From Minisyncoccota bacterium (GTDB lineage: Bacteria > Patescibacteriota > Minisyncoccia > UBA6257 > JAGOQP01), in the NCBI GenBank assembly GCA_017991375.1, contig JAGOQP010000008.1:1-32271 (forward strand): a stretch of DNA of 32,271 nt, read 5' to 3'. The first letter of the stretch is position 1. Every line of letters starts with the position of its first letter. This document shows positions 30,951 through 32,271 of this stretch, piece after piece. The notes under the pieces are model-generated. The model made no database searches. It was not told the DNA's origin and saw only the letters and a list, made by a program, of their open reading frames with translations. The translations under genes were made by a program, and so were the position numbers.

Positions 30951-30971
30951 AAAAAGGACCCCGAAGGGTCC
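30951..30971 (-). terminator. Intrinsic terminator with a TTCG tetraloop
   Basis: On the minus strand GGACCC-TTCG-GGGTCC, the very stable C(UUCG)G loop, is followed by TTTTTATTT. It ends the transcript of the 104-residue protein gene, 24 nt after the stop. Confidence 0.95.
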
Positions 30972-30995
30972 GAGAGTAGAGTACCGAAGCAATGT

Positions 30996-31310
30996 TCAGT
31001 TGGTCTTGGGAGCGTGGCCGTTCCTTTCCGCCCACAGACGGAAGTCGTTACCTCCGACTTCCAGAAGATCCTCGACTCCCACGATGAAGATCGTCCTCGG
31101 ACGTCGATCAGCTGGATCCGTGAATGCTGCCAGCTCGTCGGGGTTGTAGGCGATGCCTGCTGCGGTGAAGAAGCTGTTTTTTATCAACACCACAGGCAGA
31201 CACCCCTTGGGAACAGCGTCCCAGTCCAGAGTCTTGCTGGGGACTTCGATCCCATGGCCGATCAGGAATACCTCCTTGCTGCAGTTGCCAGGATTCACAT
31301 AGTAGCCCAT
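30996..31310 (-). CDS. Unknown 104-residue protein (MGYYVNP family)
   Basis: The start is the ATG at 31310. GGGGAG lies 4 nt upstream, and the earlier in-frame ATG at 31349 sits on the -10 box and cannot be transcribed. The sequence MGYYVNPGNCSKEVFLIGHG, LPVVLIKNSFFTAAGIAYNPDELAAFTDP and RRPRTIFIVGVEDLL recalls, from memory, small proteins of unknown function seen in phages and CPR genomes that keep 'FTAAGIAY ... F..P.D.RP'. It is one compact alpha/beta domain without export signal. It is an isolated unit: consensus promoter with an internal palindrome, Shine-Dalgarno and a tetraloop terminator. Small phage-like accessory function is possible. Confidence 0.75.
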   Translation of the reverse strand: MGYYVNPGNCSKEVFLIGHGIEVPSKTLDWDAVPKGCLPVVLIKNSFFTAAGIAYNPDELAAFTDPADRRPRTIFIVGVEDLLEVGGNDFRLWAERNGHAPKTN

Positions 31311-31349
31311 GGCTCTCCCCTTTCTTCTTTGAATTTTACAGCTTTGCAC

Positions 31350-31687: not shown

Positions 31688-31762
31688 ATTTTCTTAAATA
31701 CACGAATCGTATCGATATGTGGTTCAGTAATGGGGAGAAACCCTCCTTCAACTCAACCCTAC

Positions 31763-32230
31763 GTCATCGCGTAGGGTTAATCTAGACACCCGCCCGAACG
31801 TACCGTTCGGTACGAGCGGACCGCCTCGCGTTCCGATAAGCTTATCGGAACAAGCTCCGTCGTTCTCCGCCACGGCGGACCCACGCACGCAAAGCAGTTT
31901 GCGTGCTCCTCTCCGCATAAAATTTAAATCCGCCTATGTAGCGGATAAAATTTCATATGCGGTACCTTTTGGTTAAAATCCGAACTTTTTTTGACGAGAA
32001 CCTCGACCAGTGAACTCGCCCCGCCGCCCGCCGCCGCTGACACTCCGGCGGCAACCTCGCAGAAAAATTTTCTCCTCATTTTTTGATTTTGCGCGCGATC
32101 ATTTTTTTCTTTTAAAAGGAAAAGAAAATTTTTCTGCTCGGTTCCGCCCTACAAGTTTTCGGGCGGAGCGGCGGGGCTCAAACGCTCGGGCGAGGCGGAA
32201 TTCCCCCCACACCCCCCTTCCGCCTCGCCC
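31763..32230. other. About 470-bp GC-rich, multi-hairpin non-coding region
   Basis: No credible gene is visible from 31673 to the right edge. In order it holds: AACCCTACG/CGTAGGGTT (31763-31786), CCGAACG-TAC-CGTTCGG, a 22-bp perfect palindrome around AAGCTT (31830-31851), GCACGCAAA-GCAG-TTTGCGTGC (31885-31906), an imperfect 21-bp arm hairpin (31913-31962), GCAGAAAAATTTTCT and its inverse (32059-32073 with 32123-32137) nested inside GCCCCGCCGC and its inverse (32018-32027 with 32168-32177), and GGGCGAGGCGGAA/TTCCGCCTCGCCC around a C-rich 17-nt loop (32188-32230). Bases 31820-31908 are copy 3 of the tRNA-linked hairpin repeat. A 39-codon frame entering from the right edge on the minus strand (ending SPAAPPENL) is noted but not called. 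Confidence 0.7.
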
Positions 32231-32271
32231 TCGCTTCCGACGGCTCTTTTTTCGGCGGATTTGGAGTGCGT

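Follow-up and report, generated by a model that had tools for sequence, protein, structure and literature searches.

A composite contig end and its copies

The window, which is the whole 32,271-nucleotide contig C6 of a Minisyncoccota bacterium (GenBank JAGOQP010000008.1), stops at 32271 inside the terminal inverted repeat of an element, and it ends in a hairpin-rich stretch that an earlier note had read as a multi-branched structured RNA or a widespread repeat with no visible gene. The stretch is a composite of other hairpins, a palindrome of the kind that flanks tRNA genes and, from 31959 to 32271, the element end (Table 1). The inverted repeats are as the note had described them, with the P3 pair lying within the GCCCCGCCGC pair and a 13-bp stem with a C-rich loop following; their coordinates were checked, and the fold of 31750-32271 is much stronger than that of dinucleotide shuffles, whichever strand is taken (z of -10.3 and -9.7), indicating structure beyond chance. 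A gene is nevertheless present, since 31960-32013 on the plus strand holds the final 17 codons and the stop of a recombinase gene. We conclude that the stretch is very probably the terminal inverted repeat, on the flank side (junction J2), of a two-module integrative element, in which an R module carries a large serine recombinase (LSR) and a C module carries cargo, and which is predicted to circularize, to integrate by recombination between attP and attB sites, and thereby to swap the tail of its own recombinase.

Table 1. Features at the end of the window (positions in nucleotides)
Feature	Position	Strand	Remark
Hairpins adjoining the element, chromosomal (B') side	31755..31911	none
tRNA-Ser 3'-flank palindrome, CCGCATAAAATTT...AAATTTCATATGCGG	31913..31962	none
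Core GCGG	31959..31962	+	common to all junctions; inverse of tRNA-Ser 3' end CCGC
Conserved C-terminal tail of large serine recombinase, RYLLVKIRTFFDENLDQ and stop	31960..32013	+	in frame if joined to the R module, cf. end of contig C10
Whole C-module terminal inverted repeat	31963..32271	none	inverted copy and cargo beyond contig end
Putative zinc-ribbon (ZD) motif ATCCGAACT of attP half-site	31978..31986	+	positions 16-24 from core
Nested hairpin array, overall	32018..32177	none
P1	32018-32027/32168-32177		perfect 10-nt GCCCCGCCGC pair
P2	about 32028-32052		small
P3	32053-32082/32114-32143		30-nt pair, 83%; conserved apical segment; enclosed by P1
P4	32143-32149/32161-32167
P5, GGAATTCCCCCCACACCCCCCTTCC	32188..32230	none	perfect 13-bp stem (32188-32200/32218-32230), C-rich loop

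Copies of window 31969-32242 occur in the same genome at C5:15544-15806 (+), at C5:18412-18674 (-) and on contig C2 (-), and the end of contig C10 carries a 127-bp exact copy of window 31959-32085. The C5 pair forms a 286-bp inverted repeat with 99.65% identity that encloses 2.6 kb of cargo, and this cargo unit adjoins a 1766-bp unit with its own 124-bp repeats, which encodes a 554-aa recombinase and itself adjoins tRNA-Ala(GGC). The end of C10 has the order tRNA-Ser(TGA), R, junction J1, C end, and the frame of R reads there as KFVKW followed by RYLLVKIRTFFDENLDQ. In the simplest reading, C6 and C10 would flank a single element, with window 31959-32271 as its J2 side and the cargo in the assembly gap.

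The pattern recurs in other genomes of the family and in one IMG/VR contig; in genome G011, for example, 292-bp repeats with 100% identity enclose restriction-modification genes, and at locus L026 the motif is present at both ends, inverted. A collection-wide pattern scan identified at least 109 stretches with the C-rich hairpin, mostly from the Candidate Phyla Radiation (CPR), which bears out the idea of a widespread CPR repeat, and in the stems around the C-rich loop both sides change with pairing retained. The same element ends were also seen in contigs filed as non-CPR (Elusimicrobia, Methanoperedens, Marinimicrobia and others; L052, L054, L059, L070, L077, L079, L096 and L111), which may reflect misbinning or real transfer.

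A recombinase module and a cargo module next to tRNA genes

We chose 40 R loci irrespective of the hairpin and pooled them with the R loci from the pattern scan, giving 54 R copies with terminal repeats. The order tRNA 3' end, R module, C module, flank recurs at these 54 recombinase loci, where R consists of the LSR gene between inverted repeats of ~120 bp and C of cargo between inverted repeats of ~140 bp (median repeat lengths 120 and 142 bp, each 99% identical; median C length 2.8 kb). Paired C repeats were also found in 26 of the 54. A tRNA gene adjoins the 3' side of the recombinase (junction J0) in 40 of the 54 copies and the 5' side (J1) in none, and the tRNAs belong to 15 amino-acid types. 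The cargo includes restriction-modification enzymes, a P-type ATPase, a symporter and metabolic enzymes.

The recombinase has Resolvase, Recombinase and Zn-ribbon domains, all above the Pfam cut-off, and gives a sequence-level match to the structure of A118 integrase over residues 217-438, a domain content that identifies it as a probable large serine recombinase of the serine integrase type. R homologues, some of them weak matches, are present in 193 of 287 sampled CPR genomes.

The three junctions (J0, tRNA to R; J1, R to C; J2, C to flank) have a common 4-bp core that is inverted at J1 and that follows the tRNA 3' end of each locus: CCGC for Ser, CCAC for Ala, GCAC for Phe, etc. Read in reverse, J1 is the junction expected from circularization, which argues that an intact attP-like site is kept within the inserted element. 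At one site (L215) the insertion can be compared with its empty state: relatives such as G369 have tRNA-Ser(cga), ~20 bp and tRNA-Val(gac) uninterrupted, and in G175 an R-C element lies exactly between the two tRNA genes, directly after CCGC. With the tRNA end kept and an empty site in relatives, the comparison points to an element that integrates at tRNA genes.

Some loci depart from this anatomy. At L028 (1752-5981) and L031 (1753-4466), C modules without R lie between or beside palindromes matching the tRNA 3' flank, and the palindrome there may be what is left of an R module since lost. At L196, L209 and L213, recombinase copies, two of them adjoining tRNAs, have no detectable inverted repeats; these are possibly remnants or a simpler ancestral form.

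The coding outer end and the folded inner array

The outer ~55 bp of the C end have a dual character, in that they carry a CGAAC motif copying the tRNA T-arm and, read out of R across the core, encode a short conserved tail and stop in the recombinase frame. The tail motif, RTxF, is present in R's frame at 42 of 44 loci, and NGAAC keeps the phase in 30 of 30. Across 36 non-redundant tails, residue similarity is 2.24 per residue in R's frame, as compared with 0.72-1.05 in the other five. Once the element is inserted, the recombinase gene continues into antisense tRNA instead, ending for example in RRGRDSNPRP, so that integration would exchange the conserved C terminus for antisense tRNA sequence. 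Almost all integrated copies lack the tail, yet it is conserved; it must therefore be expressed in some other state, of which the circle is the simplest. Where copies are in tandem, a tail is retained from the neighbouring C: at L027 (62-10687; KatS3mg098) we see a tandem array tRNA-R1-C1-R2-C2, in which C1 provides the tail of the second recombinase. AlphaFold places the tail of a tandem recombinase on a C-terminal helix (residues 517-538), with modest confidence (predicted template modelling score, pTM, of 0.43).

The same DNA also has the spacing of an attachment site. The T-arm antisense CGAAC lies nearer the core in the tRNA than in the C end, with an offset of exactly +5 at 25 of 34 loci and of +4 to +6 at 32 of 34; at L215 the motif occupies positions 11-19 from the core in the tRNA and 16-24 in the C end. 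In the A118 integrase system the zinc-ribbon motif occupies positions 16-24 in attP and 11-19 in attB (PMC3783163). This agreement supports the assignment of the tRNA as attB and of C-core-R as attP, with attP longer than attB and the ZD motif shifted by 5 bp, as is characteristic of serine integrases.

The next ~250 bp, on the inner side, fold into nested hairpins, an array that only part of the family has. In 37 aligned copies, 95.4% of the cells in four helices are paired, compared with 84.3% in shuffles and 49-56% when the alignment is slid, and changes on both sides of a pair affect 28 pairs and 185 cells, compared with 17 and 51 in shuffles (0 of 500 shuffles reach either value). Such strong compensatory changes show that the array is kept as a fold. 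The tally of wobble-type departures gives 21-41 for G.U and 37 for A.C; with the two similar in number, a strand-specific RNA is not supported. A tail lies upstream of the pattern match in 78 of the 105 matches with enough upstream sequence, as compared with 9 of 105 shuffled controls, which assigns the array to C ends. At L066 (2139-2395) and L094 the C-rich P5 hairpin keeps its place but is turned round with respect to the tail.

The earlier note had set a conserved reading frame against conserved base pairing, and both are found, the outer part keeping the frame and the inner part the pairs. Its structured RNA therefore survives as a conserved branched fold with strong compensatory changes, not as a free-standing RNA gene or a simple repeat, and its general interpretation holds in part, the stretch being best read as the terminal inverted repeat of a serine-recombinase element with an outer 55 bp that is both coding and attachment site. 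The note had recognized no tmRNA, RNase P or SRP RNA signature; an Rfam search of the window returned three tRNAs only, with no family matching the hairpin region.

Proposed mechanism, alternatives and known systems

In the mechanism we propose, the tRNA 3' end serves as attB and recombines with a circular form whose attP consists of C end, core and R end. The zinc ribbon would recognize TTCGAAC of the T-arm in attB and, in attP, a copy that lies 5 bp more distant from the core. The 3' end of the recombinase gene contains attP, so that insertion would exchange the conserved tail for antisense tRNA sequence and excision would bring it back, and an intact inverted attP (J1) would remain between R and C. 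While the element is resident, the tail swap probably silences or redirects the enzyme. For the inner array we guess that its likeliest role is to separate R from the cargo as a structured boundary, either as DNA or as RNA.

Several observations weigh against this mechanism. Empty relatives were compared for one insertion site only (L215), and a search for L190 found no informative relative. We saw no circular form or attP read, so excision is deduced rather than seen; viral contigs searched for free or circular forms gave fragments only, and plasmid and phage collections gave only distant homologues (all <60% identity, best near 27%). Were the two inverted attP copies equivalent, R would be expected in both orientations; none of the copies points away from the tRNA, a bias that calls for selection or some other rule, for example that an inserted recombinase with an intact tail would be harmful since an intact attP is nearby. 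The orientation count (40 vs. 0) also led us to reject free inversion of R in the chromosome. The C modules beside tRNAs without R and the R copies without terminal repeats show that R-C linkage is not absolute. Finally, in most R-defined elements the array with its C-rich loop is not clearly visible, and it is therefore not essential to the basic mechanism.

This last point bears on whether the array could instead be a structured non-coding RNA, cis-regulatory or trans-acting, located at element ends with the recombinase merely a neighbour. The compensatory pairs and the excess of pairing over shuffles, together with the conserved apical and loop sequences, speak for such an RNA, which we regard as possible but doubtful given that it matches no Rfam family, that neither strand is favoured by its wobble pairs, that most R-defined elements have no clear array, that P5 is inverted in place in L066, and that every copy is present in both orientations within one element. 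An RNA guide in the manner of the IS110 bridge RNA was set aside informally, the conserved loops being apparently invariant with target tRNA and many elements lacking the array. A further alternative treats R and C as separate transposon-like elements, with R autonomous and C a non-autonomous passenger that inserts beside it. Each module does have its own inverted repeats, and C-only insertions are known (L028, L031), but we rejected their independence, now unlikely, because R's tail is encoded, in frame, by the C ends. Where J1 is readable, almost every R adjoins a tail-bearing C end, no direct target duplication was seen (the cores are inverted instead), and the domains of R are those of a serine integrase, not of a DDE transposase.

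Ordinary bidirectional terminators, or hairpins like repetitive extragenic palindromes, beside tRNA genes would be a simpler source of such structure, and similar hairpins do flank other tRNAs of the host genome. Parts of 31755-31911 are 85-97% identical to DNA beside its tRNA-Ser(GGA), tRNA-Lys and tRNA-Ala genes, and this reading may hold for that segment. It is refuted for 31959-32271, and very improbable overall, given the 99%-identity long inverted pairs around cargo, the coding tail, the specific att motif, the empty sites and the absence of a T-run after P5. Least credible of all is a real small minus-strand protein in the GEFTGRGSRQKKFGF frame, the peptide that the earlier note had likened to CPR hypothetical proteins. 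Open frames of ~100 aa do occur there in L028 and L033, but GEFTGRGSRQKKFGF is the antisense of the recombinase tail RYLLVKIRTFFDENLDQ, and in the tail region the protein is refuted by an antisense-frame similarity of 0.78-0.95, as compared with 2.24 in sense, and by stops in those frames.

Other features of this genome lie beside the element or elsewhere. A palindrome of the same kind as that at 31913-31962 is found 3' of an uninterrupted tRNA-Ser(GGA) at L013, and a perfect 22-nt palindrome lies at 31830-31851. At window 30996-31349, a 117-aa minus-strand open reading frame (ORF; MGYYVNPGNCSKEVFLIGHGIEVPS...) adjoins a GGACCC/GGGTCC hairpin at about 30958-30972. On contig C10 (L010, 874-1246) a GIY-YIG-like ORF (MYTVYVLKSSDG...; family assigned by eye) is placed between a partial tRNA-Ala copy (GGGCCCGTAGCTTAGTTGGT) with a hairpin and a complete tRNA-Ala(TGC), possibly a homing-type insertion in a tRNA gene.

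Among known systems, the predicted integrative element resembles the A118-type large serine integrases of a Listeria phage in domain order and in the zinc-ribbon motif, which is displaced by 5 bp between attP and attB (Rutherford et al. 2013, PMC3783163). It differs in that the CPR recombinase is only about 24% identical, targets the tRNA T-arm, and has its attP inside the 3' end of its own gene, duplicated and inverted around that gene. With the SCC/ECC cassettes and their Ccr serine recombinases (PMC6222049) it has in common an LSR, cargo that varies, a conserved gene whose 3' end is the insertion site and a circular intermediate (predicted here), and its recombinase resembles CcrA/B/C profiles but scores far below their cut-offs. 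The CPR element is miniature, targets many tRNA genes rather than rlmH, and has long inverted module repeats and the C-terminal tail exchange. By profile score and target site, it is not an SCC/ECC member.

SSV-type elements also use tRNA genes. Their archaeal "suicidal" integrases likewise carry attP inside the integrase gene, which integration alters, and are tyrosine recombinases that have been described as confined to archaea (PMC8371274). The CPR enzyme, by its domains a bacterial serine recombinase that would lose only its tail, is not one of them, the tail-in-attP feature being all that is common. The yeast 2-micron plasmid, a tyrosine (Flp) system, amplifies by flipping; the predicted CPR circle would similarly have two inverted identical recombination sites between two unique segments, although flipping is not seen in the CPR element. 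Searches for CPR or Parcubacteria with serine recombinase retrieved no matching papers, and the element is undescribed in the papers searched, with subscription journals and preprints outside that coverage. The architecture thus looks new, within the already known general kind of serine-recombinase islands.

We found little in the papers searched about gene acquisition by CPR bacteria. It is about an even call that these recombinases form a serine integrase family with a built-in directionality switch, the tail being cut on insertion and restored on excision, with inverted attP arms and hairpins that hold or synapse the ends, and that they are one of the main ways in which CPR bacteria take up genes. 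As the enzyme would read the universal T-arm, it seems able to target many tRNA species, and tRNA-targeting integrases for genetic work in CPR might come from this family. With the tail swap, the question of how a serine integrase could sense its integrated state becomes directly testable. The element also accounts for spurious CPR proteins, in that hypothetical peptides, and recombinase C termini such as DSNPRP, would be translated attachment-site or antisense tRNA sequence.
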